A stretch of 64,000 bases of DNA from Pseudomonas mendocina (GTDB lineage Bacteria; Pseudomonadota; Gammaproteobacteria; Pseudomonadales; Pseudomonadaceae), in NCBI GenBank assembly GCA_037482215.1, contig CP148074.1, positions 806,001 through 870,000 on the forward strand, given 5' to 3'. The notes under the pieces were generated by a model. It saw nothing but the letters and a program-made list of their open reading frames with translations. It was not told the DNA's origin and ran no database searches. A program made the translations under genes and the position numbers. Below are positions 9,617-39,279 of the stretch, in pieces. Each line of letters starts with the position of its first letter. Position 1 is the first letter of the stretch.

Positions 9617-9632
9617 ATACTGGCGGGGGTAT
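9617..9632. promoter_or_regulatory. Degenerate copy of the 16-bp sulfur-regulon operator
   Basis: ATACTGGCGGGGGTAT keeps the exact 16-bp spacing, the right half-site (GGGGTAT) and ATAC of the left half of the ATACCCC-N2-GGGGTAT motif seen at five other places. It lies 82 bp before the cydP start. Two left-arm mismatches make this the weakest site of the set. Confidence 0.4.
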
Positions 9633-9641
9633 TTTAGGGTT

Positions 9642-9655
9642 TTGATTCGAGTCAA
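9642..9655. promoter_or_regulatory. ANR/FNR box upstream of cydP-cydA
   Basis: TTGATTCGAGTCAA matches the FNR/ANR consensus TTGAT-N4-ATCAA except for one base. ANR activates oxidase genes at low oxygen in Pseudomonas. The box lies about 107 bp upstream of the cydP start and next to the degenerate sulfur-operator copy, so oxygen and sulfur signals may meet here. Confidence 0.7.
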
Positions 9656-9764
9656 AGCCCTTTGCTGTTTAAGGCGAGCATCTACGGCTGTATCGGGAAT
9701 TGGTATCGAGGCTCTCCTACAAGCGTATCAGTCGCTTGCAGGAAAGCCAAGCATCCGCCGGGAG

Positions 9765-10259
9765 TTATTCCTCAAGCAGGCTGCGCAGCATCCAGGCAGT
9801 CTTCTCGTGGACTTCCAAGCGCTGCGTGAGCAGGTCGGCAGTGGGCTGATCATCGGCCGCTGTCACCGTGGGGAAAAGCTTGCGTGCAGTGCGCGCCGTC
9901 GCTTCCTGAGCCTCCACGAGGTGGCGAACCATGTCATCCGCTTTGGGCACGCCTTCGACTTCCTTGATGGATGCCAGCTTGACGAACTCCTTGTACGTGC
10001 CCGGAGCGGGGTGCCCCAGAGCGCGAATACGCTCGGCGATCATGTCCAGTGCATTCCACTGCTCGGTGTATTGCAGCATGAACATCTGATGGAGGCCGTT
10101 GAACTGCGGGCCCGTTACGTTCCAGTGGAAATTGTGAGTCATCAGATACAGCGTGTAACTGTCTGCCAACAGGGCAGATAGGCCTTTGACGATTTTTGTG
10201 CGATCAGCGCTGCTGATGCCTATATCGATGGGCTTGATCTTCTTACTTGCCATCTTCAT
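9765..10259 (-). CDS. Dps-family DNA-protecting ferritin
   Basis: This 164-residue four-helix protein contains the Dps ferroxidase signature: [20 protein letters not shown], then [18 protein letters not shown]. Dps 12-mers oxidise Fe2+ with H2O2, store iron and coat DNA in stressed cells. The conserved His, Asp and Glu of the intersubunit iron site (HWNV and D..AERI) are visible. Two in-frame ATGs are possible (10259 and two codons later). It lies alone in the same direction as copy A of the sulfur operon, 160 bp downstream of the DUF2892 gene. It adds peroxide and iron protection to the island's cargo. Confidence 0.92.
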
Positions 10260-10419
10260 TTCCTTTTTTGGCTGAGTGGTGATCTGTCTGGAAAAACTTG
10301 CAGCAGAGGTGTTAGCACGAGTGAAAAATTGACCCTTGGTTTCTGCTTAGTGGAAACCGAGACGCTAGCACTTCTACTGCACTCGCTATTCAGCACAAGG
10401 CATCCTGCTTCAACCTCAG

Positions 10420-10605
10420 TTATTGCCTTGGGCAGGTTTTGATACCTACAAGGCTATACGCCGGGCACCAGCTCAAGGCGCCAGTGGCCAGTGGCAGTAC
10501 GCCAATCCATGCCCAAATGGGGCCACCCAGTACTGCCCAGAGGATGAGCGCCACCCCGGCCAGAATGCGAATGAGCCTGTCGATACCACCTACGTTTTTC
10601 TTCAT
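10420..10605 (-). CDS. DUF2892 (YgaP-type) inner-membrane protein
   Basis: This 61-residue protein has an N-terminus KKNVGGIDRLIRILAGVALI, two membrane segments and a C-terminal CPAYSLVGIKTCP motif. All are typical of DUF2892, the membrane domain that in YgaP is fused to a rhodanese. The two cysteines near the end are conserved. It follows the exported rhodanese by 12 bp, so it is very probably the last gene of sulfur operon A and may tie the rhodaneses to the membrane. Copy B has no equivalent. Confidence 0.85.
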   Translation of the reverse strand: MKKNVGGIDRLIRILAGVALILWAVLGGPIWAWIGVLPLATGALSWCPAYSLVGIKTCPRQ

Positions 10606-10617
10606 GATCGAACTCCA

Positions 10618-11172
10618 TTAAAGACTGTTATTGGCACGGTACATCTTGAGAGGGTTCATCTTGGCGCTCCATGGCAGGCCGCTGTTCTGCCAGCCGCCTT
10701 GCAGGCGGAAACCAGCTTGCGGTCCTTCCTTGAGTGCAGGCCCTTGGAAGCCGTCGATTACATAGCGCGCATTGGGAAATCCATTGGCTCGTAAGAAGTC
10801 CGCACTTGGCTTGCCACGCTCGCTGCCGGAGCGGCACATGGTGATGATTTCGGCGTCAGTACTCAGGCCGCGCTCTTTGAGTGCTGCGCGCACCTCTTCG
10901 ATGAAGCGGGGATTTTGCGCCACCTTGTAGGAGCCCCGCTCATCATCCCAAGTGGTGCGGTCCACCAGCAGGTAAGGAATATTGATGTCTACTGCATCGG
11001 TGAAGCCCACGAACATGATTTCCACCGGATCCCTGACATCGATGAACAGTAGCTTGGCTTCCCCTTGACCGAGTTTGGCGTAGGTGTCCTGAGCACTGAT
11101 GCCAATGTCGGTATCAGCCATAGCCGGAAGACTTAGAAGAGCCAGCAGCGTGGCCATGATCAGAGCTTTCAT
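10618..11172 (-). CDS. Exported rhodanese-like protein, operon A
   Basis: A 184-residue protein starts with a signal peptide (MKALIMATLLALLSLPAMAD, cleavage after about residue 19) and is therefore periplasmic. The rhodanese domain has its active-site loop at Cys113 (CRSGSER), a six-residue loop typical of sulfurtransferases. It probably accepts sulfane sulfur from persulfide or thiosulfate. The sequence ends AKMNPLKMYR, shared with the paralogue at 33915-34454. ATG 11172 gives a proper signal peptide with SD-like AAGGAG; a longer frame upstream lacks homology. It comes fourth in the operon, after the cytoplasmic rhodanese. Confidence 0.87.
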   Translation of the reverse strand: MKALIMATLLALLSLPAMADTDIGISAQDTYAKLGQGEAKLLFIDVRDPVEIMFVGFTDAVDINIPYLLVDRTTWDDERGSYKVAQNPRFIEEVRAALKERGLSTDAEIITMCRSGSERGKPSADFLRANGFPNARYVIDGFQGPALKEGPQAGFRLQGGWQNSGLPWSAKMNPLKMYRANNSL

Positions 11173-11188
11173 ACCTTTTCTCCTTATG

Positions 11189-11569
11189 TCATTCGAAAGG
11201 TGGGAGCGTAGGGCGGGCGATGGGCTTGCCCGCCTCATGCCAGGCGTCGTAGCCCCCCTCAATTGATCTAACCTGCAGGTAGCCCATATCTGCCAGGCTA
11301 CGGGCAGCCAGTGCAGCGCGGCCGCTGGTCTTGCAGTACAGAATGACATTCAGATCTCGGGCCGCCAGCTCAGGGCTGTTGCTGAGCCTGAACTCCAGCA
11401 GGCCGCGTGGAATATTGATGGCGCCGGGGATATGTCCTGACTGGTACTCATCGGGTTCGCGTACATCAATCACTGCGTCTGCTTCGCGCATCAGCGTTTC
11501 TGCAGCCTCCGGGCTGACTTCGTCGATATGTTGGCGGGCTTCCTCCACCAGGTCATGCGCGGTCTTCAT
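11189..11569 (-). CDS. Cytoplasmic rhodanese, operon A
   Basis: This 126-residue single-domain rhodanese has Cys79 in the loop CKTSGRAAL and the upstream signature GHIPGAINIPRG. Its substrate is probably glutathione persulfide or another low-molecular persulfide, which it would turn into thiosulfate or pass on to acceptors. There is no signal peptide. Its start overlaps the SulP stop by 4 bp. The paralogue in operon B has the same length (34478-34858). Confidence 0.9.
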   Translation of the reverse strand: MKTAHDLVEEARQHIDEVSPEAAETLMREADAVIDVREPDEYQSGHIPGAINIPRGLLEFRLSNSPELAARDLNVILYCKTSGRAALAARSLADMGYLQVRSIEGGYDAWHEAGKPIARPTLPPFE

Positions 11570-13335
11570 GGGTTTCTCCTATTGGATGCAGCGAATGAGT
11601 GACTGTGTTCCAAGGTGCTGAGTGTCAGCTCTGGCGCCAAGGTTTTCAGAGCCTGGTACTGACTTATGAAAACCTGGCCGCCGAAGCGCTCCAGAAAATC
11701 CGAGCGGCGCAGTTGATCCATGACCGGCCCTTTGACTTCGGACAGGTGCAGTTGCACCCCAGCGATGTTCAGGCGTTCGGCGATAGCCTCCAGAGAGTCC
11801 AGGGCGCTGGCATCGATCAGGTTGACTCCTGGGCACATCAGCACCAAATGTCGTACCTGCGGGCGTGCTGCGATCAGCTCGCTGATGCGTTCTTCCAAGT
11901 AGCGCGCATTGGGGAAGTAGAGGCTTTCATCGACCCTAAGGGAAAGAACGCTTGGTGATTCGATCACGTCAAAGCGCTGCACATTGCGAAAGTGTTCGGT
12001 CCCCGGAACTTGGCCGACAACGGCCATGTGCGGCTTGCTGGTGCGGTACAGAAACAGCAGCAGAGAAAGGCCAACGCCAATCAGGATGCCGGCTTCAACG
12101 CCGATAAACATTACGCCCAGCAAGGTGGCGAGTTGGGCCAGTCCATCCTGCTTGGAATACTGCCAGGTTCGTTTCAATGAGCCTAGATCGACGAGGCTGA
12201 GCACTGCGACAATGATGGTGGCGGCCAGTACCGCTTGAGGAAGGTTGTGCAGTAGCGGCGTCAGCAGTAGCGCGCTGAGGGCAATCCCGACTGCAGTGAA
12301 GACACCAGCCATGGGCGTTTGTGCGCCGGCGTCATAGTTGACCACCGAGCGGGCGAAGCCTCCCGTAACGGGGAAGCCGCCGCTGAAGGCCGCACTCAGA
12401 TTGGCTGTGCCTAAACCCAACAGTTCACTGTCCGGGTCAATGCGCTGGCGGCGTTTTGCCGCCAGGGTCTGGCCGACCGATACTGATTCGACGAAGCCGA
12501 CCAGGCTAATCAGCAAAGCTGCTGGTAACAGTTGTAATGCCAGCCGCCAATCCAATTCCGGCAGGCTGAAGGCCGGCAGCCCTTGGGGAATAGTCCCTAC
12601 GACCTTGACGCCACTCTGATCAAGATGCAGCACACTGACGGCAAGAATCGTCATCACAATGGCCAGTACGGGCCCCGCCTTGGCCATATTGGCAGCCACC
12701 TGGGCATTTAGGCCTAGCTTCTGCAACAGTGGCTTCAGCTGGCTGCGCGCCCACCAGAGCCAGCTAAGGCTGAGCAGGCCAATCAGCAATGTTGGCCCAT
12801 GCGTGTCCGGCAGCGCGCTGAACAGTCCGGGAATCAGTTGTACAAGACTTTCCCCCGAGACGGAGATACCCAGCACATGCTTCAGTTGACCTATGGCGAT
12901 CAGTAAGCCCGAGGCGCTGATAAAACCTGAAATCACCGGGTGACTGAGAAAGTTGGCGAAGAAGCCCAAGCGCAAAACCGCCATCAAGGTCAGGATCAGG
13001 CCAGACATCATTGCTAGTAGCATGGCTGCAGCAATGTAACTGGGGCCTCCTTGCGGAAACAGCGGCTGTAGCGCGGCGGCCGTCATCAGTGACACTACAG
13101 CCACCGGGCCAACCGCCAGGGTACGGCTGGAACCAAAAATGGCGTAGAGCATCAATGGTAGTAGGCTGGCGTACAGTCCATGCACAGGTGGTAAGCCGGC
13201 GAGCATGGCATATGCCAGGCTTTGAGGTATCAGCATCAGCGTGACGATCAGGGCGGCCATGCTGTCCTGGGCTGCGTGGCTTCTGTTGTATTGACGCCCC
13301 CAATCTAGGCAGGGCAGCCAGCGGCTGATGCTCAT
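11566..13335 (-). CDS. SulP-family anion transporter with STAS domain, operon A
   Basis: This 589-residue inner-membrane transporter of the SulP/SLC26 family has 10-12 hydrophobic segments over residues 1-430, with family signatures IPQSLAYAMLAGLPPVHGLYAS and AFSGGFPVTGGFARSVVN. A C-terminal STAS domain follows (VNLIDASALDSLEAI). SulP proteins move sulfate, bicarbonate or related anions. In this setting sulfate, sulfite or thiosulfate export or uptake is likely, but the direction is not shown by sequence. It overlaps both neighbours by 4 bp, so the operon is tightly coupled. Confidence 0.93.
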   Translation of the reverse strand: MSISRWLPCLDWGRQYNRSHAAQDSMAALIVTLMLIPQSLAYAMLAGLPPVHGLYASLLPLMLYAIFGSSRTLAVGPVAVVSLMTAAALQPLFPQGGPSYIAAAMLLAMMSGLILTLMAVLRLGFFANFLSHPVISGFISASGLLIAIGQLKHVLGISVSGESLVQLIPGLFSALPDTHGPTLLIGLLSLSWLWWARSQLKPLLQKLGLNAQVAANMAKAGPVLAIVMTILAVSVLHLDQSGVKVVGTIPQGLPAFSLPELDWRLALQLLPAALLISLVGFVESVSVGQTLAAKRRQRIDPDSELLGLGTANLSAAFSGGFPVTGGFARSVVNYDAGAQTPMAGVFTAVGIALSALLLTPLLHNLPQAVLAATIIVAVLSLVDLGSLKRTWQYSKQDGLAQLATLLGVMFIGVEAGILIGVGLSLLLFLYRTSKPHMAVVGQVPGTEHFRNVQRFDVIESPSVLSLRVDESLYFPNARYLEERISELIAARPQVRHLVLMCPGVNLIDASALDSLEAIAERLNIAGVQLHLSEVKGPVMDQLRRSDFLERFGGQVFISQYQALKTLAPELTLSTLEHSHSFAASNRRNP

Positions 13336-15074
13336 TTTCGTGGGTCCTGTCCAAAGTCACAGGCGGCAGGAGCCTCCACCGGCAGGGGCTCATGGGGTAG
13401 ACGCTTGGGTTCGGCTAGCCACTCACGCCCACGCAGCATCATGTCGAAATAGATGCTGGGCATCATCTTCACTTTAAGGTCCCATGCCAGGCGGCGAGGT
13501 ACGGCCGGGTCGAGTGGGAATGTAGGTAGTAGCTTGCCGCCATAACCGAACTCGGCAAGCACCACCTTGCCGCGCTCGACCGTTAGCGGGCAGGAGCCGT
13601 AGCCGTCGTAGAGTGCACGCGGCCCTTTGCCTGCGAGCACGGCAAGGACGTTCTCGGCGACGACTGGCGCCTGCTTCCGAACTGCCGCAGCAGTCTTGGC
13701 ATTTGGGGCAGCACAGACATCGCCGAGGCTGAAGATATTGCCAAAGCGCGGGTGGCGAAGGGTCTCATGATCGGCTTCGACCCAGCCGTCTGCATTGGCC
13801 AGTGGGCTCTGACGGATAAATTCGGGAGCCCGTTGTGGCGGTACGGCGTGTAGGAAATCGAAGGTCTTCTCGATCTCCTGGCTATTGCCTTGCGCATCGA
13901 CCTGCTTGAACCAAGCCTTGTGGCCGGGGCCGTCGACGGCAAGCAGAGTGGTGTTGAAGTTAAGGTGAGCACCGTATCGCTCGACATACTGCATGAGGGG
14001 GGGCACGAAGGTCGGTACCCCGAACAGCACGGCACCGGCTGAACAGAAGTCGACTTCGATATTCGACAGCACGCCCTCTTTCAGCCACCAGTCGCAGGAA
14101 AGGTACATTGCTTTCTGCGGCGCGCCTGCACATTTGATCGGCATTGGCGGTTGGGTGAACAGGGCACGACCCTGTCGCAGGCTCTGTACCAGTTGCCAGG
14201 TGTAGGGCGCCAGTTCGAACTGGTAGTTGGACGTTACACCGTGTTTGCCCAGTGTGGATTTGAGTCCTTCAATCGCGTCCCAATTCAGTGTCAGACCTGG
14301 GCAGACAATCAGTGCGCGATAGCCGATGCGGTTGCCATCTTCCAATACCACTCTCTGCTGGTCTGGCTCGAACCCGGCCACGGCAGCGCGAATCCATTGA
14401 GCGCCCTGAGGAATGCAACGGCCCATGGCGCGCTCTGTGCGGGCACGGTCGAAAATACCGCCACCTACCAGTGTCCAACCAGGTTGGTAGTAGTGCTGGT
14501 CACGTGGCTCAACGATGGCGATGCGCAGATCCGGATTGCGTCTTAGAAGGCTGGCGCTAACGGCACAGCCGGCGGCTCCCCCACCGACTACCAGTACGTC
14601 ATAGCGCTGAGTGGGCGGCGTGCTGGCCTGCGGCACTCTGATGGCGGCCTTTTGCCAGCTCTCTTCTAGGCGGGGTGCCAGCCCCGTCAGGTCGTAGCCC
14701 GCATCGCGGGCTGTAGCGAGGATGGTGAGCGGATCAAGATGATGCGCTTCGCTCAGTGCCCACAGGCTAGTCGAGCGAGTTCCCGTTCGGCAAAAGGCAA
14801 GCACTGGGCCTCGAACTTGGTTTATCAGATCGCCGAAGGCGCTGACGTCACCATCCCCGATCTGCCCGGATACTACCGGTAAAAAATGGTACTCCAGGCC
14901 ACTAGCCTCGGCTGCAGCTTGCATCTCAGCAGAAGAGGGCTGTCCCTCACCCTCTCCGTCTGGCCTATTGTTGATTACGCTGCGAAATCCGGCGGCGGCT
15001 AACGTGCCCATATCGGCTGGCTGCAGTTGGGCCGCAACGGCGATGAAGGGTGTCAGGCGTTTGAGCGAGTCCAT
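13332..15074 (-). CDS. sqr: DUF442 domain fused to SQOR-type sulfide:quinone oxidoreductase, operon A
   Basis: A 580-residue fusion. Residues 1-130 are a DUF442/TIGR01244 phosphatase-like sulfurtransferase with the loop CRTGTR (Cys95 to Arg100). Residues 158-570 are a two-dinucleotide-binding flavoprotein (VVGGGAAGC at 163-170). The blocks PIKCAGAPQK (Cys315), FSLGDVC (Cys454)..AKTAAAV and YDGYGSCPLT match the mitochondrial SQOR type of sulfide:quinone reductase. It oxidises sulfide, passes electrons to quinone and hands the sulfane sulfur to an acceptor, perhaps its own DUF442 domain. It is peripheral on the inner membrane. The second active cysteine sits one residue later than I recall in human SQOR (GDVC rather than GDC). 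Confidence 0.92.
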   Translation of the reverse strand: MDSLKRLTPFIAVAAQLQPADMGTLAAAGFRSVINNRPDGEGEGQPSSAEMQAAAEASGLEYHFLPVVSGQIGDGDVSAFGDLINQVRGPVLAFCRTGTRSTSLWALSEAHHLDPLTILATARDAGYDLTGLAPRLEESWQKAAIRVPQASTPPTQRYDVLVVGGGAAGCAVSASLLRRNPDLRIAIVEPRDQHYYQPGWTLVGGGIFDRARTERAMGRCIPQGAQWIRAAVAGFEPDQQRVVLEDGNRIGYRALIVCPGLTLNWDAIEGLKSTLGKHGVTSNYQFELAPYTWQLVQSLRQGRALFTQPPMPIKCAGAPQKAMYLSCDWWLKEGVLSNIEVDFCSAGAVLFGVPTFVPPLMQYVERYGAHLNFNTTLLAVDGPGHKAWFKQVDAQGNSQEIEKTFDFLHAVPPQRAPEFIRQSPLANADGWVEADHETLRHPRFGNIFSLGDVCAAPNAKTAAAVRKQAPVVAENVLAVLAGKGPRALYDGYGSCPLTVERGKVVLAEFGYGGKLLPTFPLDPAVPRRLAWDLKVKMMPSIYFDMMLRGREWLAEPKRLPHEPLPVEAPAACDFGQDPRK

Positions 15075-15083
15075 AGCGTCACC

Positions 15084-15947
15084 TCAGAGCACGTCGAGCG
15101 GGATCTTCAGATACCGGGTGCCATTCTCCTCTGCGGGAGGGAGTTGACCTGCGCGCATATTGACCTGAACCGAGGGAAGAATCAGGGTCGGCATGCCAAG
15201 GGTGGCGTCGCGCTTGCTGCGCATGGCAACGAAGTCTTCTTCGCTGATCCCTTCATGCACATGCACGTTATGCGCGCGCTCCTCGGCAACGGTGGTCTCA
15301 AAACGGTAATCGTCTCGTCCTGGTGCCTTGTAGTCGTGGCACATGAACAGGCGAGTCTCGCCAGGCAAGCTGAACAGCTTGCGGATTGACTGATACAGGG
15401 TATGAGCGCTTCCACCGGGGAAGTCGCAACGCGCGGTGCCGTAGTCAGGCATGAACAGGGTGTCGCCGACAAATCCTGCATCGCCAATCACATAAGTCAT
15501 GCAGGCAGGAGTATGCCCAGGGGTGTGCAAGGCATGGGCTTTGATGCTGCCGATGGTGAAGGTGTCGCCGTCAGCGAACAGATGATCGAACTGGCTGCCA
15601 TCGGTGGCGAATTCACAACCAGCATTGAACAGCTTGCCGAAAGTGTTCTGTACCACGGTGATGTTGGCGCCGATGCCCAGTTTTCCGCCCAGCTCACGCT
15701 TCAGATAAGGCGCAGCTGACAGGTGATCGGCGTGCACATGGGTTTCCAGTAGCCAGTCAACGGTCAGTTTATGTTCATGGACATGGGCGATCAGTCGGTC
15801 GGCACTGGCAAAGGAAGTGCGTCCGGATGCCGGGTCGTAGTCCAGTACCGAATCAATAATGGCGCAGTGTTTGGTGGTGGGGTCGCTGACCACGTAGCTG
15901 TAGGTGAACGTGGCGGGATCAAAGAATGCATCGACTTTGGGTTGCAT
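15084..15947 (-). CDS. Persulfide dioxygenase-like MBL protein, operon A
   Basis: This 287-residue metallo-beta-lactamase-fold protein of the Blh/ETHE1 type has the metal motif HVHADH (His70, His72, Asp74, His75), HTPGHTPACMTY and GDTLFMPDYGTARCDFPGG. Members oxidise glutathione persulfide to sulfite and need one Fe2+. It is the first gene of the operon. ATG 15947 matches the paralogue exactly in length and lies about 16 bp after the operator palindrome, with an AGGAG ribosome site in between. The frame is open further upstream but that part would lie inside the operator. Confidence 0.92.
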   Translation of the reverse strand: MQPKVDAFFDPATFTYSYVVSDPTTKHCAIIDSVLDYDPASGRTSFASADRLIAHVHEHKLTVDWLLETHVHADHLSAAPYLKRELGGKLGIGANITVVQNTFGKLFNAGCEFATDGSQFDHLFADGDTFTIGSIKAHALHTPGHTPACMTYVIGDAGFVGDTLFMPDYGTARCDFPGGSAHTLYQSIRKLFSLPGETRLFMCHDYKAPGRDDYRFETTVAEERAHNVHVHEGISEEDFVAMRSKRDATLGMPTLILPSVQVNMRAGQLPPAEENGTRYLKIPLDVL

Positions 15948-15963
15948 GGCTGTGCTCCTATAC

Positions 15964-15979
15964 ATACCCCATGGGGTAT
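15964..15979. promoter_or_regulatory. Perfect operator palindrome before sulfur operon A
   Basis: ATACCCCATGGGGTAT is a perfect 16-bp palindrome just upstream of the ribosome site of the MBL gene, so it overlaps the transcript start region. The form (A/T ends, C4-N2-G4) is typical of CsoR/CstR-type operators. It matches sites at 27951, 30567, 33749 and 39264. Confidence 0.75.
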
Positions 15980-16000
15980 CTTTTTTGAGCATACCTAATT

Positions 16001-16013
16001 TTCTGTTCTATGC
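16001..16013. promoter_or_regulatory. Conserved upstream box shared by both sulfur operons
   Basis: Read on the minus strand, GCATAGAACAGAA lies 22 bp upstream of the operator. The identical 13 bp occurs upstream of operon B (39307-39319) at a similar distance while the surroundings differ. It may hold the -35 region or an activator site. A TATGCT stretch between box and operator could be the -10. Confidence 0.45.
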
Positions 16014-16204
16014 TTAGAATAAAAGAGAATATTAATTTTTGGCTTTGTTCTTTGGGCTCTACTCTGATTAAGCAATTGAAATATATGGATTTAATTCATT
16101 ATTTCTGTGGCTGCAGGGCGTGCCGTCTACAGCTGAGGAGGTGGTATGGGTGATCTGTGGATGTTTGTAGGGGCGCTTGTAGTGGTCTATTTGAGGGTAA
16201 TACT

Positions 16205-16571: not shown

Positions 16572-17660
16572 TCAGTCTGAATGGTTGACGAGCTCACTGA
16601 GCAACTGGTTGACCTGCATACTGCTCTGCTCCATGTCGTTTACTGCGCGCAGGACCTTGTTCCAGTCCTGGCTTTGGGCGGCATGCAGGGCCTCATGGGC
16701 GGCATCGTGTACCAGTCGGTGCGGTTGTTCCAACTGTTGGTAGCTGCGTAGACGGCCATAGAGAGCCTGGGTATCGCTGTTTTTGTACCACTGCCCGAGT
16801 CGGCAAGTGTCGTGGTCACTAAGTTGAGTGTTGCTGTCGTGCTTGAACAGGCGCTGATAGACGGACAGCTTGAACAGCAGGTGGTCGAGTTTGACGGCTT
16901 CGCAGAAGGAGCCGAGGGCAATACCCTCAATCAGTTGGTTCATGTGCTCGCCGAGCACCACCATTTCATCAAGAGTCTGAGCTGAGCTGGAGACATCGCC
17001 AGCCAGGCGAGATGCTTCCTCGGAGAGGGTGCCGATGGAGCGGCTGGCGGTTTCGGTTTCCTGATTGATCGAGCCGACAAGCTGGCTGATTTCCTGGGTG
17101 GCCTGGGAAGTGCGTTGGGCCAGGGCGCGCACCTCGTCGGCAACCACGGCGAAACCGCGACCTTGTTCACCGGCCCGGGCAGCCTCGATGGCAGCGTTAA
17201 GAGCCAGCAGGTTGGTCTGGTCGGAAATTGCTTTGATCAGCTCGACGATGCGGCTGATCTCGCTGACCCGCTGCCGCAGAAGTTCTACGCTCTGCACGCT
17301 GCTGATCCCCTGCTCGGCCATGGTGCCGAGAGAGCTGGAGAAGCCGCCGAGCAGCGCCGAGGTTTGCTCGAAGACACCGCTGTGCTGGCGCAGCTTGTTA
17401 ACTTCGCCGCGCAGTTGGTCGGCTTGAGTCACAACACCATCACGGGTTTGCGACAGCGAGTCCTCGAACTGATCCAGTTTACTGTGCAATTGGCTTTGGT
17501 ATCGACTCTGTACATTCAGGTCGGTCAATTCTTGTTGATTCGACTGCTGCAGGCTACGCAAGGCCTCAAGCTCTTGCTGCATTGCGCGCTTTTCCTGCTC
17601 AAGCTGACTGACTTGTTGTTGCAGTGCTTCACTGTGCATGCGCCACTTGCGGTCGAACAT
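16572..17660 (-). CDS. Soluble chemoreceptor with C-terminal CZB domain
   Basis: A 362-residue methyl-accepting chemotaxis-type protein without membrane segments. Residues 1-70 form a coiled coil; the signalling hairpin tip lies near residues 140-190 ([40 protein letters not shown]). The chemoreceptor zinc-binding domain follows at about 250-350 ([37 protein letters not shown]), with the 3-His/1-Cys zinc set. CZB domains are reported to sense zinc or oxidants such as HOCl through the zinc-bound cysteine. It would link oxidant or thiol chemistry to motility or another Che-type pathway. It starts 154 bp from a divergent small gene. Confidence 0.9.
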
Positions 17661-18246: not shown

Positions 18247-18423
18247 TCACTTGCTTGATGGTGCTGCCTGCAGTCGACAGAGGATCCAGCACGCCAGTAC
18301 CACCGCTATCAGCAATGGTGGAAAGCGTACCATCATAATCGCCAGCAACAAGACCGCCAGGCAGCCTGTCAGGATCCCGGCAAACATCATCGCAGCACCG
18401 AAAGTACGTAGCAGCCGTTTCAT
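18247..18423 (-). CDS. Small membrane protein in the plasmid-like cassette
   Basis: A 58-residue frame (MKRLLRTFGAAMMFAGILTG, then CLAVLLLAIMMVRFPPLLIAVVLACWILCRL) has two hydrophobic segments. Its ATG overlaps the stop of the RDF-like gene by 4 bp, which supports translation. The function is unknown. Confidence 0.55.
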   Translation of the reverse strand: MKRLLRTFGAAMMFAGILTGCLAVLLLAIMMVRFPPLLIAVVLACWILCRLQAAPSSK

Positions 18424-26469: not shown

Positions 26470-26470
26470 T

Positions 26471-31470: not shown

Positions 31471-32886
31471 TCACTCTTCGGCCGAGAGCCCAAGGGGCAA
31501 GCCTTGAGGGTCAGTGAAGTGTTTGGCGATTTCTTGCAATGCTGTGGCCAGCAACTCTTCCACCACAGGGTGGTAGAACGGCATTTGCAGCAGGCTTTGC
31601 GCCGTTTCACCGCGCTGTATGGCCCACGCTAGTTGATGCGCCAAGTGTTCGCCGTCGATACTGAGAAGCGAGGCGCCGAGTAGTAAACCGCTGGTGCTAT
31701 CGGCGTAAATATTCAGCAGGCTGCGTTCACCGCCCAAGATGCGCAAACGGCCATTCGCTTCGCCCGACGCACTGCCAACGATAATCCGGCTGGGTTCTAG
31801 CTCGCTCAAGCGTTTACCAATGGTCGCGACATCAGGTTTAGCGAAGGCGATGGACAGCGAAGTTTTTTGCCGGAAGCGTGTGGGAGTGGTCCGCGCTGCG
31901 TTATAGCCGGCTATCGCACCTTCGTCAGCCGCTTCATGCATCAAAGCGCGCTGCCCGTTAGCGTCACCGGCAATGTACACCGGCCAATCGTCCAGCCGCA
32001 GAGTGGCCGGGTCAAACAGCGGCTCGCCACGTTCTTGCAGGGTAAAACCTGCAGCCTGCAGATTCAGCTCATCGGTGTTCGCGCGCCGGCCGGTTGCCAC
32101 CAATAGCAGGTCAATAGTTACGCAGCGCTCACCTGAACGCAGCACCAGCCCATGCTCTGCACGTTCAACGCTGGCGGGTTGGCCGAGCCAGATTGGCATC
32201 TCTTGCGAGAAAACCTCGACTGCACGGGCGGCCACCTGTGGGTCGTCAATACCTGCCAGGCTTGAACCGCCAGCCGCTGTGACTTCAATGCCGAGCCGGC
32301 TGAGCGCCAGACCCATTTCCAGCCCCAGCGCGCCCAAACCCAACACCCCGATGCGTGCCGGCAATTCTGCCATCTCAAACAGCGTGTCCGTGGTGACAAT
32401 CCGGTCTGCAAACGGAGCCAGCCAGTCGGGGATAAACGGGCGCGAGCCGGTGGCGATAATCACCGCGCCTGCGCGGATGACGTGCGTACCTTCAGCGCTT
32501 TCAACTTCCAGCAAGGTGGGTTCAAGAAAGCGTGCGCGCCCCTCGATCAGCTGTTTACCCGCCGCGGCGCGGGCTTTGTTAGCGGCGTTGTTAGAGAAGA
32601 AATCACGCTGCTCACGCAGAGCTGCCCAAGTTATGGCGTTATCAAGCTGCAGCGCCTCGCTATTCGCCACACCGATGGCCGGCATGGCCAAACGTGACTG
32701 CCATAGATCGGCTGCATGCAGCGCCAACTTGGAGGGCATGCAACCCACTCTGGCGCAGGTGGTGCCGAGCGGGCCGTGGTCGATAAGGACAAAACTTCGC
32801 CCGGCGCGGCGTACCTCACGCAGTGCATAAAGCCCGGCTGTACCGGCACCAATAATGGCAACGTCGACGGTGATTTCTGTACGCAT
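31471..32886 (-). CDS. Dihydrolipoyl dehydrogenase-like disulfide oxidoreductase
   Basis: A 471-residue class-I pyridine nucleotide-disulfide oxidoreductase. The FAD motif IIGAGTAGLYAL lies at 11-22, the redox-active pair Cys44-x4-Cys49 in TTCARVGCMPSK, an NAD(P) motif GVLGLGALGLEMGLAL in the middle, and the C-terminal dimer domain ends with the catalytic His-Glu region (FYHPVVEELL). It could reduce lipoamide, a low-molecular disulfide or a peroxiredoxin partner. It lacks the extra cysteines of mercuric reductase. It follows the peroxiredoxin gene by about 100 bp on the same strand, suggesting that they act as a pair. Start ATG 32886. Confidence 0.88.
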   Translation of the reverse strand: MRTEITVDVAIIGAGTAGLYALREVRRAGRSFVLIDHGPLGTTCARVGCMPSKLALHAADLWQSRLAMPAIGVANSEALQLDNAITWAALREQRDFFSNNAANKARAAAGKQLIEGRARFLEPTLLEVESAEGTHVIRAGAVIIATGSRPFIPDWLAPFADRIVTTDTLFEMAELPARIGVLGLGALGLEMGLALSRLGIEVTAAGGSSLAGIDDPQVAARAVEVFSQEMPIWLGQPASVERAEHGLVLRSGERCVTIDLLLVATGRRANTDELNLQAAGFTLQERGEPLFDPATLRLDDWPVYIAGDANGQRALMHEAADEGAIAGYNAARTTPTRFRQKTSLSIAFAKPDVATIGKRLSELEPSRIIVGSASGEANGRLRILGGERSLLNIYADSTSGLLLGASLLSIDGEHLAHQLAWAIQRGETAQSLLQMPFYHPVVEELLATALQEIAKHFTDPQGLPLGLSAEE

Positions 32887-32919
32887 GACCGGAGAATCCT
32901 TTTCGACTTGAGATGCAGA

Positions 32920-32955
32920 AAACCGCTGTATATGCGAAGGCATATGCAGCGGTTT
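32920..32955. other. Stem-loop between peroxiredoxin and oxidoreductase genes
   Basis: AAACCGCTG pairs with CAGCGGTTT (32920-32928 with 32947-32955), and the inner ATATGC/GCATAT extends the stem. There is no T-run on the minus strand, so it is likely an mRNA processing or stabilising hairpin that sets different levels of the two proteins. Confidence 0.5.
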
Positions 32956-32984
32956 GACGGGCAGTAAAGCCCTTTTGCTAAGCG

Positions 32985-33629
32985 TTACAGCGTTTTAGTG
33001 GAGAAGTACCAATCCACTGTTTCGTAGCCTTCAGCGGCGCGTTTCTCGGCAGCTTCTGCAGTTTTTGGCGGCGGTACGATAACCGGCTGGCCCGGACGCC
33101 AGTTTTCCGGAGTTGCCACGCTGTTGTCGTCGGCTGTTTGCATGGCTTGTAGCAGACGCACGAACTCATCAATGCTGCGGCCGTTGCTCATTGGGTAGTA
33201 CACCATCGCGCGCAGAATACCGTTTGGGTCGATAAAAAAGGTCGCCCGTACCGCTTGGGTATCCGCCGCGCCCGGGTGAACCATGCCGTAGGCACTGGCC
33301 ACCTTCATGGAGATATCTTCAATGATCGGGAAGGGGATTTCGACGTCGAACTTCTCTTTGATGTTGCGCATCCAGGCCAAGTGCGAAAACAGGCTGTCGA
33401 TGGACAGACCCAGAAGCTCGCAATTCATTTCAGCGAACGTTGGCGCAGCTTTAGCAAAGCCAATAAATTCAGTGGTGCACACCGGCGTGAAGTCTGCCGG
33501 GTGGGAGAACAGAATTAACCACTTGCCACGGTAGTCTTCCAGCGAACGATCACCAGACGTGGTGCGAGCGGTGAACGGAGGTGCTGGCTCGTTGAGGCGA
33601 GGGAAGCTCATCTGCGGGCTATTTTCCAT
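32985..33629 (-). CDS. Peroxiredoxin, Prx6 / 1-Cys type
   Basis: A 214-residue AhpC/TSA-fold protein with the peroxidatic Cys51 in HPADFTPVCTTEF and the long C-terminal arm (PENWRPGQPVIVPPP...YETVDWYFSTKTL) of the Prx6-like group. These reduce H2O2, organic peroxides and possibly persulfides using thiols. Another cysteine at MNCELLGL is not at a resolving position. A strong operator palindrome lies 120 bp upstream, so it is likely part of the sulfur regulon. Confidence 0.93.
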   Translation of the reverse strand: MENSPQMSFPRLNEPAPPFTARTTSGDRSLEDYRGKWLILFSHPADFTPVCTTEFIGFAKAAPTFAEMNCELLGLSIDSLFSHLAWMRNIKEKFDVEIPFPIIEDISMKVASAYGMVHPGAADTQAVRATFFIDPNGILRAMVYYPMSNGRSIDEFVRLLQAMQTADDNSVATPENWRPGQPVIVPPPKTAEAAEKRAAEGYETVDWYFSTKTL

Positions 33630-33726: not shown

Positions 33727-33743
33727 AGTCCTCCTGCAGTCAC

Positions 33744-33769
33744 CCAATATACCCCTGGGGGTATATTGG
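33744..33769. promoter_or_regulatory. Extended operator palindrome before peroxiredoxin
   Basis: The 16-bp core ATACCCCTGGGGGTAT (33749-33764) is flanked by further matching bases, giving perfect 12-bp arms (CCAATATACCCC) around a 2-bp centre. It is the longest of the set and points at the peroxiredoxin operon; the gene on the other side ends toward it. No gene is seen in 33770-33914. Confidence 0.75.
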
Positions 33770-33914: not shown

Positions 33915-34454
33915 TTAAGGGCGATACATCTTGGAGGGGTTCATTTTTGCGCTCCATGGCAGCCCGACGTTTTGCCAGCCGCTTTGCAGGCGCATGCCGG
34001 CTTGCGGGCCCTCTTTGAGCGCCGAGCCTTGGAAGCCATCAACCACGTAGCGGGCATTGGGGAAGCCGTTAGCGCGAAGAAAATCTGCACTTGGCTTACC
34101 GCGCTCACTGCCGGAACGGCACATGGTAATAATTTCACTTTGGGCAGTTAGGCCGTGCTTGGCCAACGCCGCTTTTACCTCGGCAATAAAATTGGGGTTC
34201 TGTGCGATTGAGTAAGTGCCGCGTGTTTCATCCCACGCGCTGCGGTCAACCAGCAGATAGGGGATGTTGGTGTGCACGTCATCGGTAAAGCCGACAAACA
34301 TGATCTCGACTGGGTCACGCACATCGATAAACAGCAGTTGCGTTACGTCTTGCTGCAGGCGCTTGTGCACCTCTTGTGCATTGGCGGAAAGATCCACCGC
34401 GTGGGCGGCGAAGGTCAGCAGGCTGAGGCAAATAGCAGTCAGTAGGCGTTGCAT
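33915..34454 (-). CDS. Exported rhodanese-like protein, operon B
   Basis: A 179-residue paralogue of the protein at 10618-11172. It has a signal peptide (MQRLLTAICLSLLTFAAHA) and the same active loop CRSGSERGKPSADFL. Between residues 45 and 179 the copies are nearly identical, while the signal peptides differ. ATG 34454 is preferred because AAAGGAG precedes it. It is the last gene of operon B; no DUF2892 gene follows. Confidence 0.87.
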   Translation of the reverse strand: MQRLLTAICLSLLTFAAHAVDLSANAQEVHKRLQQDVTQLLFIDVRDPVEIMFVGFTDDVHTNIPYLLVDRSAWDETRGTYSIAQNPNFIAEVKAALAKHGLTAQSEIITMCRSGSERGKPSADFLRANGFPNARYVVDGFQGSALKEGPQAGMRLQSGWQNVGLPWSAKMNPSKMYRP

Positions 34455-34477
34455 GAGTGCTCCTTTGGCCAATGGCC

Positions 34478-34858
34478 TTAATCGAATGCAGGAAGGTGCG
34501 GTGTGTCGATAGCCTTATCGGCAGCGCTCCACGCCTCAAAGCCACCTTGAATTGACAGCACGTGCAGGTAGCCCATCTCTTTTAATGAGCACGCGGCTAA
34601 CGCCGCGCGGCCGCTGTTTTTGCAATAGAGCACCAGCTTCTGGTCGCGTTGCGCCAGCTCAGGTTCATTGCTCAGTTTGAATTCCAGCAAGCCGCGGGGG
34701 ATGTTGATGGCACCGGGGATGTGCCCGGCGTGAAATTCATCGGCTTCGCGCACATCGATCACTACATCAGCCGCCTTGATAGCAGCGTCAGCCTCCTGCA
34801 GGTCAATTTCATGGATGCGCTTTTTAGCGGCGGCTACCAAGTCATGGGCAGTTTTCAT
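34478..34858 (-). CDS. Cytoplasmic rhodanese, operon B
   Basis: A 126-residue paralogue of the gene at 11189, with the active loop CKNSGRAAL (Thr of copy A replaced by Asn) and GHIPGAINIPRGLLEF. ATG 34858 gives the same length as copy A. A 10-bp gap separates it from SulP, whereas the genes overlap in operon A. Confidence 0.9.
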   Translation of the reverse strand: MKTAHDLVAAAKKRIHEIDLQEADAAIKAADVVIDVREADEFHAGHIPGAINIPRGLLEFKLSNEPELAQRDQKLVLYCKNSGRAALAACSLKEMGYLHVLSIQGGFEAWSAADKAIDTPHLPAFD

Positions 34859-34868
34859 CAGAATGTCC

Positions 34869-36635
34869 TTATGCATGGGGTTGGGTGTCGGCGCGCAGAT
34901 TGCTCGGCAGTAAGGTCTGCTGGGTAAGCTGCGGCGCTAAAGCTTTTAGGGCCTCGAACTGGCTGATAAACACCTGGCCACCAAAGTGCTGGAGAAAGCT
35001 TGAGCGGCGCAGCTGATCCATCACCGGGCCTTTAACTTCGGACAGGTGCAGCTGAATGTTGGCGGTTTTTAGGCGTTCAACAACGGCTTCCAGCGAATCA
35101 AGGGCGCTGGCATCAATCAGGTTGACGCCCGAACACATCAGCACCAAATGGCGAACTTGAGGTCGATTGGCTATCAGTTCGCCAATCCGATCCTCGAGGT
35201 AGCGGGCGTTGGGGAAGTACAGGCTTTCATCGACCCGCAGCGACAGCACGTTGGGCGACTCAATAACCGCAAAACGCTCGATATTGCGAAAATGCTCGCT
35301 GCCCGGTACTTGGCCGACAACCGCCATGTGCGGCTGGCTGGTGCGCCAAAGAAACAGCAACAGTGAGAGCCCCACGCCGATCAGGATGCCAGCCTCAACA
35401 CCGATCAACAGCACACCGATAATCGTCGCCAACTGCGCGACGCCGTCAGGGCGCGAATATCGCCAGGTGCGGCTCAGCGAACCAAGGTCAACCAAACTCA
35501 GCACCGCGACAATAATCGTCGCGGCCAATACGGCTTGCGGCAGGTTATGCAGCAGCGGGGTCAGCAGCATGACGCTGAGGCCGATACCGGCGGCGGTGAA
35601 CACTCCGGCCATGGGAGTTTGCGCGCCGGCGTCATAGTTGACCACCGAACGAGAAAAACCACCGGTAACAGGAAAGCCACCACTAAAGGCTGCACTCAGA
35701 TTGGCTGTCCCCAAGCCGAGCAACTCATTGTCGGGCTCGATACGTTGGCGCCGTTTTGCTGCGAGCGTTTGGCCTACCGACACCGACTCAACAAAACCTA
35801 CCAAGCTGATCAACAGCGCTGCGGGCAGCAGTTGCATGGCTAAAGCGATATCCAGTGTGGGCAACATAAGCCCTGGTAAGCCCTGTGGGATGACCCCGAC
35901 CACTTTCACCCCAGCGTGCTCCAGTTGCAGCAGTGACACCGCGGTAATGGCGGCAATAATCGCCATCACCGGCCCGGCCTTGGCTAAGTTGCCGGCCATT
36001 TGCACAGACAGCCCCATCCGTTGCAGAACAGGTTTTAGGCGCGCCCGCGCCCACCACAGCCATACCAGGCTGAACACACCGATCAGCACGGTTTGCCAGT
36101 GCGCACTCGGCAGCCCTAACCACAGCTGCGGGATTACCTGCCGCAGGCTCTCACCCGAGGCGCTGATGCCCAGCAGGTGCTTAAGCTGACCCACAGCGAT
36201 AAGAATGCCGGAGGCACTGATAAAACCAGACACGACAGGGTGACTGAGGAAATTCGCTAAAAAGCCCAGCCGCAACATCGCCATGCTGCTGAGCAGCAAC
36301 CCAGACAAAAGCGCCAGCAGCATCGCCGCGCCGATATAGGCTTCGCTGCCCGCAGGGAACAGTGGCGCGAGCGCTGCGGCAGTCATCAGCGACACCACCG
36401 CCACTGGGCCTACGGCCAAGGTGCGGCTGGAGCCAAAAACGGCATAAGCCAACAGCGGCAAAATGCTCGCATACAGGCCCGTCACCGGCGGCAAACCGGC
36501 GAGCATGGCGTAGGCCAGGCTCTGCGGGATCAGCATCAGCGTTACGATCAGTGCGGCCAGGCCGTCTTGGGCCGCGCTGCTGCGGTCATAACAGCGCCCC
36601 CACTCGAGGCAGGGCAGCCAGTGGCTCAGTTTCAT
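34869..36635 (-). CDS. SulP-family anion transporter with STAS domain, operon B
   Basis: A 588-residue paralogue of the transporter at 11566, conserved over its whole length with changes spread evenly. It shares IPQSLAYAMLAGLPPVTGLYAS, AFSGGFPVTGGFSRSVVN and the STAS block VNLIDASALDSLEAV. It probably moves the same anion. Codon choice differs from copy A (for example more TTT/GCG pairs), so the two operons likely come from different donors rather than from a recent duplication. Confidence 0.93.
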   Translation of the reverse strand: MKLSHWLPCLEWGRCYDRSSAAQDGLAALIVTLMLIPQSLAYAMLAGLPPVTGLYASILPLLAYAVFGSSRTLAVGPVAVVSLMTAAALAPLFPAGSEAYIGAAMLLALLSGLLLSSMAMLRLGFLANFLSHPVVSGFISASGILIAVGQLKHLLGISASGESLRQVIPQLWLGLPSAHWQTVLIGVFSLVWLWWARARLKPVLQRMGLSVQMAGNLAKAGPVMAIIAAITAVSLLQLEHAGVKVVGVIPQGLPGLMLPTLDIALAMQLLPAALLISLVGFVESVSVGQTLAAKRRQRIEPDNELLGLGTANLSAAFSGGFPVTGGFSRSVVNYDAGAQTPMAGVFTAAGIGLSVMLLTPLLHNLPQAVLAATIIVAVLSLVDLGSLSRTWRYSRPDGVAQLATIIGVLLIGVEAGILIGVGLSLLLFLWRTSQPHMAVVGQVPGSEHFRNIERFAVIESPNVLSLRVDESLYFPNARYLEDRIGELIANRPQVRHLVLMCSGVNLIDASALDSLEAVVERLKTANIQLHLSEVKGPVMDQLRRSSFLQHFGGQVFISQFEALKALAPQLTQQTLLPSNLRADTQPHA

Positions 36636-38374
36636 TTGGCCTGATCCTTTCCAAAATCACAGGCCGCTGCTGCTTGAACGGCAGCGGGTTCATGCTGCAA
36701 ACGTTTGGGTGCGGCCAGCCATTCACGGCCGTGTAGCATCATGTCGAAGTAGATGCTGGGCATCAGCTTAACTTTCAGCTCCCAAGCCAAGCGGCGCGGT
36801 ATGGCGGGGTCTAACGGGAAGGTAGGCAGCAGTTTGCCGCCGTAGCCAAACTCCGCCAGTAGCACTTTGCCACGCTCAACCGTCAGCGGGCATGAGCCGT
36901 AACCGTCGTACAGCGCGCGTGGCCCTTTTCCGGCGAGAACAGAGATCACGTTTTCCGCGACCACCGGCGCTTGCTTGCGCACCGCGGCAGCGGTTTTGGC
37001 GTTGGGTGATGCACAAACGTCACCCAAGCTGAAGATATTGCCGAAGCGCGGATGGCGCAGGGTTTCTGCGTCTGCCTCAACCCAGCCCTCGGCATTAACC
37101 AAAGAGCTTTGGCGAATAAACTCAGGCGCGCGTTGGGACGGCACGGCGTGCAGTATGTCAAAGGATTTTTCGATGGTTTGGCTGTTGCCTGCCGTATCCA
37201 CCTGGTTAAACCATGCTTTGCGCGCCGGGCCGTCCACTGCCGTTAGGGTGGTGTTGAAGTGAAGCTGGGCGTTGTAGCGCTCGATGTATTTCATCAGCGG
37301 CGGAACGAAGGTCGGCACGCCGAATAACACCGCACCAGCGGTGCAAAACTCGACGTCAATGTCAGGCAGTACCCCTTGTTTTTGCCACCAGTCACACGAC
37401 AGGTATAGCGCCTTCTGCGGCGCACCGGCGCACTTGATCGGCATTGGAGGCTGGGTAAACAGCGCGTTGCCTTTGCGTAAATTTTGCACCAGTTGCCAGG
37501 TGTAGGGCGCCAGCTCAAATTGATAATTGGAGGTGACGCCGTTCTGCCCCAGCGTCTCTTTGAGGCCTTCGACGGCATCCCAGTGCAGGCTTAAACCGGG
37601 GCAGACGATCAGGGCGCGGTAGCCAATCCGGTTGCCGTCTTCAAGCACCGCACATTGCTGCTCGGGCTCAAAGCCGGCCACTGCGGCGCAAATCCATTGC
37701 GCACCTCGGGGAATGCAACGGGCCATCGGCCGTTCGGTGTGGGCTCGGTCAAAAATACCAGCGCCAACTAGCGTCCAGCCAGGTTGGTAGTAGTGATGTT
37801 CACTTGGATCGACTACGGCGATTCGCAAGTGCGGGTCTCGCCGTAGCAGGCTGGCCGTCACCGCGCAACCGGCGGCGCCACCGCCAACCACCACCACGTC
37901 ATAGCGCTGGGTAGGCGGCGTGCTGCGTTGCGCTGTGGCGAGGGGGGCATTCTGCCAACGCTGCTCTAAGCGCGGCGCCAGGCCGCTGAGGTCATAGCCG
38001 TTGTTCTGCGCCGTTTTAAGCAGCGCGTGCGGGTCTAAGTGGCGCGCTTCACTCAATGCCCACAGCGTTGTGGAGCGTGTGCCGGTGCGACAGAACGCCA
38101 GCACCGGGCCGCGCACGTGGCCGAGCAGCTCAGTAAAAGCCGCCACCTGTTCATCGCTGATCTGCCCCGCCGTCACTGGCAGGAAGAAGTATTCAAGGCC
38201 ACTCGCCAGCGCTGCCGTTTGAATTTCGGCTGAGCTGGGTTGGTCTTCACCTTCGCCGTCGGGGCGGTTATTTATCACGCTGCGAAACCCTGCCGCGGCG
38301 AGTGTGCCCATGTCTGCTGGTTGCAACTGCCCAGCGACGGCGATAAACGGGCTGAGGTGTTTTAGTGCATCCAT
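36632..38374 (-). CDS. sqr: DUF442-SQR fusion, operon B
   Basis: A 580-residue paralogue of the fusion at 13332 with the same domain order. It carries CRTGTR in DUF442, VVGGGAAGC, KCAGAPQKALYLSCDWW, FSLGDVCASPNAKTAAAV and YDGYGSCPLT. All inferred catalytic cysteines are kept, so both copies should be active sulfide:quinone reductases. ATG 38374 (MDALKHLSPF) matches the start of copy A. It overlaps SulP by 4 bp. Confidence 0.92.
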   Translation of the reverse strand: MDALKHLSPFIAVAGQLQPADMGTLAAAGFRSVINNRPDGEGEDQPSSAEIQTAALASGLEYFFLPVTAGQISDEQVAAFTELLGHVRGPVLAFCRTGTRSTTLWALSEARHLDPHALLKTAQNNGYDLSGLAPRLEQRWQNAPLATAQRSTPPTQRYDVVVVGGGAAGCAVTASLLRRDPHLRIAVVDPSEHHYYQPGWTLVGAGIFDRAHTERPMARCIPRGAQWICAAVAGFEPEQQCAVLEDGNRIGYRALIVCPGLSLHWDAVEGLKETLGQNGVTSNYQFELAPYTWQLVQNLRKGNALFTQPPMPIKCAGAPQKALYLSCDWWQKQGVLPDIDVEFCTAGAVLFGVPTFVPPLMKYIERYNAQLHFNTTLTAVDGPARKAWFNQVDTAGNSQTIEKSFDILHAVPSQRAPEFIRQSSLVNAEGWVEADAETLRHPRFGNIFSLGDVCASPNAKTAAAVRKQAPVVAENVISVLAGKGPRALYDGYGSCPLTVERGKVLLAEFGYGGKLLPTFPLDPAIPRRLAWELKVKLMPSIYFDMMLHGREWLAAPKRLQHEPAAVQAAAACDFGKDQAK

Positions 38375-38384
38375 GGTCAGCACC

Positions 38385-39248
38385 TCAGAGCACGTCGAGG
38401 GGGATTTTCAAGTAGCGAGTGCCATTGTCTTCGGCGGGTGGCAGTTGCCCCGCGCGCATGTTTATTTGCACCGCCGGGAGAATCAGCGTGGGCATGCTCA
38501 GCGTCGCATCACGGCTGCTACGCATGGCGACAAAGCTGGCTTCATCAATGCCCTCATGCACATGCACGTTGTGCGCGCGCTCTTCGGCAACGGTCGTTTG
38601 GTTGCGGAAATCATCGCGCCCCGGTGCCTTGTAGTCGTGGCACATAAACAGACGAGTGCTACCCGGCAAGGTGAACAGCTTGCGAATTGATTGGAACAAG
38701 GTGCGCGCATCGCCACCGGGGAAGTCGCACCGCGCCGTACCGTAATCCGGCATAAACAGCGTATCACCCACAAAGCCGGCATCGCCGATCAGGTAGGTCA
38801 TACAGGCCGGCGTGTGCCCCGGGGTGTGCATGGCTTGGGCAGCGATGTTGCCTATTTGAAAGGTATCGCCATCTTTAAACAGGTGGTCGAACTGGCGACC
38901 ATCGGTGGCGAACTCGGTGCCGGCGTTGAACAACTTGCCGAATGTGTCTTGCACTACGGTGATGTTTTCACCAATCGCCAACTGGCCGCCCAGTTCGCGT
39001 TGCAGGTAGGGCGCAGCCGAGAGGTGGTCTGCATGCACATGGGTTTCTAGCAGCCAATCCACCTTTAAGTCATGCTCTTTAACGAACGCGATCATCCGAT
39101 CAGCGCTGGCGAAGGAAGTGCGCCCGGAGGCCGGGTCATAATCCAACACCGAGTCAATAATGGCGCAGCGCTGGCTGCTGGGGTCGATTACTACATAGCT
39201 GTAGGTGAACGTGGCGGGGTCAAAAAACGCTTCGACATTGACTTGCAT
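38385..39248 (-). CDS. Persulfide dioxygenase-like MBL protein, operon B
   Basis: A 287-residue paralogue of the protein at 15084, identical in length and metal motif (HVHADHLSAAPYL, HTPGHTPACMTY, GDTLFMPDYGTARCDFPGG). First gene of operon B; ATG 39248 lies 15 bp after the operator with GAGGAG in between. The last residues (YLKIPLDVL) are the same in both copies. Confidence 0.92.
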   Translation of the reverse strand: MQVNVEAFFDPATFTYSYVVIDPSSQRCAIIDSVLDYDPASGRTSFASADRMIAFVKEHDLKVDWLLETHVHADHLSAAPYLQRELGGQLAIGENITVVQDTFGKLFNAGTEFATDGRQFDHLFKDGDTFQIGNIAAQAMHTPGHTPACMTYLIGDAGFVGDTLFMPDYGTARCDFPGGDARTLFQSIRKLFTLPGSTRLFMCHDYKAPGRDDFRNQTTVAEERAHNVHVHEGIDEASFVAMRSSRDATLSMPTLILPAVQINMRAGQLPPAEDNGTRYLKIPLDVL

Positions 39249-39263
39249 GGCCGTCTCCTCAAT

Positions 39264-39279
39264 ATACCCCTAGGGGTAT
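39264..39279. promoter_or_regulatory. Perfect operator palindrome before sulfur operon B
   Basis: ATACCCCTAGGGGTAT is a perfect 16-bp palindrome placed like the one before operon A, 15 bp upstream of the MBL start codon. Only the two central bases differ between the two. Confidence 0.75.

Follow-up and report, generated by a model that had tools for sequence, protein, structure and literature searches.

What reads a 16-bp palindrome that recurs before sulfur and respiratory operons in Pseudomonas mendocina, and to what signal would its reader respond? The palindrome, with the consensus ATACCCC-N2-GGGGTAT, lies in a 64,000-nucleotide stretch (the window, positions 806001-870000 of a 4.76-Mb single-contig genome, GenBank CP148074.1), and we think it likely that it is the operator of a CsoR-family repressor encoded at 31160-31429, which would sense reactive sulfur and work in the manner of CstR. 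The sequence supports this through the placement of the sites, a single candidate regulator, the co-inheritance of sites and regulator, the DNA-contact residues and an invariant pair of cysteines. The sites and the regulator are, in window coordinates:

9617-9632, degenerate operator, three mismatches, before cydP-cydA-cydB (motif search and alignment with relatives)
15964-15979, perfect operator, 16 bp before the start of the persulfide dioxygenase (PDO) gene of sulfur operon A (motif search)
27951-27966, operator with one mismatch, before cioA-cioB-cydD-cydC (motif search)
30567-30582, operator with two mismatches, before the Tll0287-like/csoR operon (motif search)
33749-33764, perfect operator, arms extended to 13 bp, preceding the peroxiredoxin/flavoprotein operon (motif search)
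39264-39279, perfect operator of sulfur operon B, 15 bp upstream of its PDO start (motif search)
31160-31429, plus strand, CsoR-family regulator of 89 amino acids with Cys37 and Cys61, proposed repressor (PF02583)

All six sites described in a sequence-only reading of this DNA were re-found by motif search, with the mismatches claimed for each and with the extended perfect arms at 33749. At up to three mismatches the window holds seven matches, whereas 100 shuffles gave 1.58 on average and never more than five; the palindrome is genuine and well beyond what chance would give. The seventh match, at 54866 (three mismatches), was absent from the earlier reading and lies inside an open reading frame (54661-56109). 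The genome contains three perfect copies, every one within the window, together with three sites at one mismatch (one in the window) and ten at two mismatches (one in the window), giving 16 sites at up to two mismatches, five of them in the window, compared with three for the pattern read backwards as a control. The earlier reading had named a wealth of comparable hits scattered at random as the outcome that would speak against its regulon, and this whole-genome search did not give that outcome. All five window sites at up to two mismatches are intergenic, compared with one of the 11 outside (Fisher p = 0.0014), the other ten lying inside called genes. Of these five, 15964 falls inside the longest open reading frame possible for its gene (ATG at 15992); we count it as intergenic because the start in common with the PDO paralogue is 15947. 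The sole intergenic site outside the window (one mismatch, G000:C1:2029489-2029504), flanked by what we take to be a cold-shock-like gene and clpS, may be chance or an additional target.

Profile searches gave the genes of the window the identities that had been assigned to them from the sequence; those that follow the sites are:

6605-9535, minus strand, cydP-cydA-cydB, bd-type oxidase (profile searches)
10420-15947, minus strand, sulfur operon A, paralogues of operon B plus a YgaP-like transmembrane protein
22157-27871, minus strand, cioA-cioB-cydD-cydC, bd-type oxidase and exporter (profile searches)
30610-31167, plus strand, Tll0287-like (DUF3365) protein with a CLACH motif read by eye, in the regulator's operon (PF11845, 78 bits)
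31471-33629, minus strand, peroxiredoxin and pyridine-nucleotide-disulfide oxidoreductase
33915-39248, minus strand, sulfur operon B, PDO-type metallo-beta-lactamase, DUF442-SQR (sulfide:quinone oxidoreductase) fusion, SulP and two rhodaneses

The five genes common to operons A and B are 63-85% identical. Besides the two PDO gaps given above, the sites stand 27 bp from the start codon of the csoR operon, 79 bp from that of cioA, 81 bp from that of cydP and 119 bp from that of the peroxiredoxin gene, the start codons of PDO-A, cioA and the Tll0287-like gene having been picked by us. The proposed circuit is supported, with good sites before both sulfide-oxidation operons, cioAB-cydDC, the peroxiredoxin operon and the csoR operon itself; the site before cydPAB, at 9617, is weak.

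The CsoR-family gene singled out by the earlier reading lies in the middle of the regulon and is the only member of the family found by a search of the genome. It matches PF02583 over the whole domain (68.5 bits, the cut-off being 22.8, in a 91-codon frame), its nearest named relatives are from Pseudomonas, and a structure model of the monomer has three helices (pLDDT 90.7). An RLxR motif is present as R16-L17-A18-R19, with A18 in 119 of 120 homologues, and R19 and Q43 are each conserved in all 120. In our own alignment, anchored on what we take to be the numbering of Streptomyces lividans CsoR (C75), R19 and Q43 fall opposite R57 and Q81 of that protein. The available text on S. lividans CsoR reports that R57 and Q81 are required for DNA binding, and describes an RLXR motif (PMC3902906). 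Of the copper-CsoR ligands Cys/His/Cys at 0/+25/+29 only the first is kept (Cys37), the other two positions holding Leu62 and Ala66; Leu62 also stands in place of the +25 histidine of RcnR and FrmR, for which the NCBIfam scores are 27 of 138 and 27 of 133 bits. The CstR pair of cysteines 29 residues apart is likewise missing (Ala66 at +29, with the second cysteine at +24), whereas the gene content expected of a CstR-like regulator is found, namely rhodanese, SQR and PDO-type genes with sites near the regulator, both in the window and in relatives. When 32 proteins of the family are placed in a tree, those with Cys37/Cys61, 12 in number, cluster together as a single group (support 91/91); of the 20 other members sampled, 19 keep His at +25. 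Judged by this fingerprint of cysteines and histidines, the regulator is neither CstR nor copper CsoR.

If the regulator reads the palindrome, the two should travel together. Among orthologue loci of the Pseudomonadaceae (the best 80 of 97, 1.49 Mb in total) we counted 6, 29 and 43 sites at zero, one and two mismatches, compared with means of 0, 0.11 and 3.9 and maxima of 0, 3 and 54 for 104 half-sites permuted without change of composition; because of these maxima it is the sites at zero and one mismatch that carry weight. At least one site at up to two mismatches occurs in 56 of the 80 loci. With a home-made gene caller, sites taken from -300 to +20 and the near-window locus L012 included, a site precedes PDO in 25/32 cases, cydP in 8/13, cioA in 3/4, the Tll0287-like gene in 12/31, YeeE in 5/22, csoR in 11/78 and other genes in 13/1099. 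The csoR gene is present in 44 of 148 genomes of the family, and at least two sites at up to one mismatch were found in 24/44 genomes with the gene versus 4/104 without it; for at least one such site the figures are 37/44 and 39/104.

A sharper contrast came from the 1.5-kb regions that precede PDO genes, 20 in genomes lacking csoR (70-80% identical to the window PDO; 20 of 30 genes at 70% or above) and 20 in genomes carrying it (72-86% identical; 20 of 42 genes), a choice that was not blind, the genome site counts being known and one csoR-carrying region (G086) having been seen earlier. A site at up to two mismatches was present in 17/20 regions with csoR and 0/20 without. Ten of the 17 lie within 80 bp of the PDO start, and the others (six at distances of 947-974 bp, the last at 1352 bp) stand before neighbours in the csoR-PDO cluster; of the three regions that lack such a site, two have one with three mismatches at the usual position. 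The contrast is kept inside genera g1 and g12, both of which include both kinds of genome, and when the G-tract is ignored TAC-N8-GTA occurs near the PDO start in 12/20 versus 0/20. The presence of the csoR gene predicts the presence of sites in other genomes. In csoR-carrying relatives the sites precede PDO, ETHE1-like PDO, OsmC-like, YeeE/YedE-like, cydP, rhodanese, peroxiredoxin and CcoG-like genes, where OsmC, YeeE, ETHE1 and CcoG are names that we presume from the sequences; two sites have no clear sulfur gene, one before a sigma-factor-like gene (L115) and one inside a gene (L116). The earlier picture of an island-wide regulon holds for this genome, in which the circuit is compact, but not for its relatives, in which we regard it as dispersed because their sites are spread over the chromosome.

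Outside the family, a class-wide search with the regulator alignment gave matches in 12 of 274 genomes, and the loci comprise six with Cys37/Cys61, one with Thr61 and three with Cys-His-Cys. Sulfur-oxidation genes and sites accompany four of the six Cys37/Cys61 loci (G219, G238, G172 and G287). In G219 a perfect site precedes YeeE-PDO, with csoR farther along, and in G172 sites lie between SQR-like and ETHE1-like genes and immediately before csoR. In G238, from another gammaproteobacterial family, a sox cluster (L187, 5328-12145; SoxB, X, A, Z, Y and C above the NCBIfam cut-offs) contains a Cys37/Cys61 csoR and has an operator-like site with one mismatch before soxC. Over 100 kb, seven outside loci, that with Thr61 included, hold seven sites, compared with a control mean of 0.24 and a maximum of three.

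Several observations weigh against a sulfur-sensing repressor that reads this operator. One permuted control, with 54 matches at exactly two mismatches, exceeds the real count of 43, and two-mismatch sites on their own are weak evidence. No site at up to two mismatches was found in the stretch examined at 24 of the 80 csoR loci, and seven of the 44 csoR-carrying genomes are without any at up to one mismatch; conversely, 39 of the 104 genomes lacking the gene have at least one. Nine such places in genomes lacking csoR comprise four in an rpoN-like gene, two inside other called genes, one that is intergenic, one at a gene edge and one that was not placed. Perfect 16-mers near 987 kb in such genomes were rejected as operators, lying as they do inside one gene (L103-L106), which we take to be rpoN. 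The genomes are related, so the p values are optimistic. Outside the family, two of the six Cys37/Cys61 loci (G154 and G185) are without sulfur genes or sites, and the cysteine spacing of 24 is unlike that of every sulfur-sensing CsoR relative for which we met reported cysteines.

Those relatives nevertheless offer the closest models. CstR of Staphylococcus and Enterococcus and YrkD of Bacillus licheniformis are reported to have the CsoR fold and two conserved cysteines, and likewise to control PDO, SQR and rhodanese-type genes close to the regulator; the CstR pair is given as Cys31-Cys60 (spacing 29), compared with Cys37-Cys61 and Ala at +29 here, and the regulon described here, unlike that of CstR, includes two bd-type oxidases. 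On its sequence the 16-mer matches the CsoR type of operator, a TAC/GTA dyad around G-tracts in the 16-bp ATACCn6GGTAT form, and it agrees with the CsoR-family operator ATATACCCCTNAGGGGTATAT given in the accessible part of PMC3902906. ScCsoR of Streptomyces coelicolor, as described in the available text of PMC7533328, represses pdo, rhodanese and sulfite-transporter genes from a like 16-bp ATACCn6GGTAT site, is released by polysulfide and is persulfidated at its Cys37; it differs in its second cysteine, Cys66 (+29), and its phylum, and that text mentions no oxidases. TTHA1953 of Thermus thermophilus is similarly described as a cysteine-modulated CsoR-family protein controlling sulfur oxidation, but with Cys39/Cys68 (+29), an operator TACNNTACNNNNGTANNGTA without G-tracts and targets distant from the regulator (PMC10318464, in the part available). 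Copper CsoR, InrS and FrmR retain the histidine at +25 that is Leu62 here. In the portions of the literature that we met, CsoR-type sulfur regulators come from Firmicutes, Streptomyces and Thermus, and those of Proteobacteria are BigR/SqrR, FisR, OxyR, HlyU and MarR-type proteins; our literature search, in the text it returned, found no paper describing a Cys37/Cys61 subfamily.

Binding, repression, effector and cysteine chemistry we infer, the sensing function from the content of the regulon and by analogy with these proteins. The reduced protein would bind the TAC-N8-GTA palindrome with its G-tracts and repress its own operon together with both operons for sulfide oxidation, cioAB-cydDC and the peroxiredoxin operon; its effect on cydPAB would be weak. 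H2S would give rise to persulfides or polysulfides that react with Cys37, and probably also with Cys61 of the neighbouring subunit; the protein would be released, and PDO, SQR, the rhodaneses and SulP would be made together with the bd-type oxidases. For P. aeruginosa, the available part of one study reports that CioAB confers tolerance of sulfide (PMC10968556).

A second element complicates the PDO promoters, which have in common a near-palindrome, TCTAWGCATAKAAC:

39311-39324, minus strand, second conserved element TCTATGCATAGAAC, PDO-B promoter
16005-16018, minus strand, second conserved element TCTAAGCATAGAAC, PDO-A promoter

At up to two mismatches, 31 of 37 matches to TCTAWGCATAGAAC in the 80 loci lie 41-49 bp from the operator (start to start), and at up to one mismatch the element occurs in this genome in the two PDO promoters only; it is also found in some genomes lacking csoR. 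The element of the PDO-B promoter is probably the box of another regulator, and we propose a BigR-like sensor. A BigR-like ArsR gene lies 4 kb left of the window (G000:C1:801942-802241); it scores 115.5 bits, below the NCBIfam BigR cut-off of 155, and passes that of the ArsR/SmtB subfamily (93.7 against 55). The box TMTAWGYATAKA, a related pattern picked after viewing the 40 PDO regions, occurs in 18/26 regions from genomes with a BigR-like gene versus 1/14 from those without (p = 0.0002). BigR and SqrR are described as persulfide-sensing repressors of sulfide-detoxification genes in Proteobacteria, and in this resemble the regulator proposed here; they belong to the unrelated ArsR family, and the box that probably serves them here is distinct from the operator and lies upstream of it. 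In several g15 genomes the BigR-like gene is adjacent to csoR. Visual inspection of the stretch that separates the second element from the operator suggests a TAnnnT -10 hexamer, which is only tentative because a promoter scan of 39200-39480 gave no sigma-70 promoter.

Could the 16-mer then be read by the BigR-like protein itself, or by some other regulator? The gene exists in this genome and such genes often lie within about 1.5 kb of PDO in genomes lacking csoR, but it is tracked by the different box, and although a BigR-like gene is present in the genomes of 14 of the 20 PDO regions lacking csoR, none of these has the 16-mer at up to two mismatches; we reject the BigR-like protein as its reader on these grounds, and regard a different reader of any kind as a slight prospect, at long odds. 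A somewhat larger, still very small, chance attaches to an ordinary CsoR/RcnR sensor of copper, nickel or cobalt, to which the sulfur genes would be linked by an overlap of metal and sulfide stress. It would have the PF02583 family and the type of operator in common with copper CsoR; against it, the +25 and +29 ligand positions are Leu62 and Ala66 in a family in which 19 of 20 other members keep the histidine, the genes with sites in the window serve sulfur metabolism and respiration, and no copper-efflux gene was seen among the window genes scanned. We reject ordinary metal sensing because the ligands are absent.

A role for the palindromes in RNA, as hairpins or terminators, in place of one as DNA operators seems barely credible. 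The site at 39264-39279 scores as terminator-like on the plus strand and the PDO sites lie immediately before the start codon; nevertheless, a two-base spacer leaves no loop unless pairs break, the gaps to the start codon range over 15-119 bp and the presence of sites follows the csoR gene, and on these three grounds we reject a hairpin function. The alternative that deserves most attention, although we consider it unlikely, accepts the repressor and its operators and changes the effector to an electrophile, peroxide or cyanide. The regulon does contain a peroxiredoxin and a cyanide-insensitive-type oxidase, and the relative FrmR is reported to sense formaldehyde (PMC5016687, in the available text). 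On the other side, PDO is the gene most often marked by a site (25/32), sox genes are preceded by one in another family, and three relatives that control sulfur genes are described as thiol-modulated.

The weakest member of the set, 9617, scores no better than chance; its score is no evidence because 54866, inside a gene, also has three mismatches. It shares an alignment column with sites of zero to two mismatches upstream of cydP in relatives, which were chosen for having a site, and we regard it as an operator that is weak or has decayed. Adjoining it upstream of cydP, at 9642-9655, is what we take to be an ANR/FNR-like box, TTGATTCGAGTCAA, the single match of its type in the window (0.14 expected; 12 of 100 shuffles have one); some relatives have similar TTGA-N6-TCAA sequences upstream of cydP. 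An IS66 transposase gene (28175-29710) separates the operators of cioA and the csoR operon, which in P. defluvii (L012) are 246 bp apart (7789 and 8035). Two genes hint that the region is partly of mobile origin, one for a Gp3-like recombination directionality factor (18420-19319) and one that is integrase-like (43690-44895) but scores under the NCBIfam cut-off. Beside operon A lies a gene for a chemoreceptor with a CZB zinc-binding domain (16572-17660), without an operator of its own.

A fuller proposal, which we put forward tentatively and at rather less than even chances, is that of a separate gammaproteobacterial subfamily of CsoR-like proteins which, having no His/Cys ligand site, would sense reactive sulfur through a Cys37/Cys61 dithiol whose register is new, would control a regulon linking the removal of sulfide with bd-type respiration and, at PDO promoters, would act with an unrelated BigR-like sensor bound about 45 bp upstream, two persulfide sensors gating one promoter. 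Whether a cysteine pair with a spacing of 24 is equivalent to the spacing-29 pair of CstR is a testable chemical question. If the repressor is what we propose, the Pseudomonadaceae would gain a dedicated repressor whose operator is defined and whose regulon ties bd-type oxidases to the removal of sulfide.

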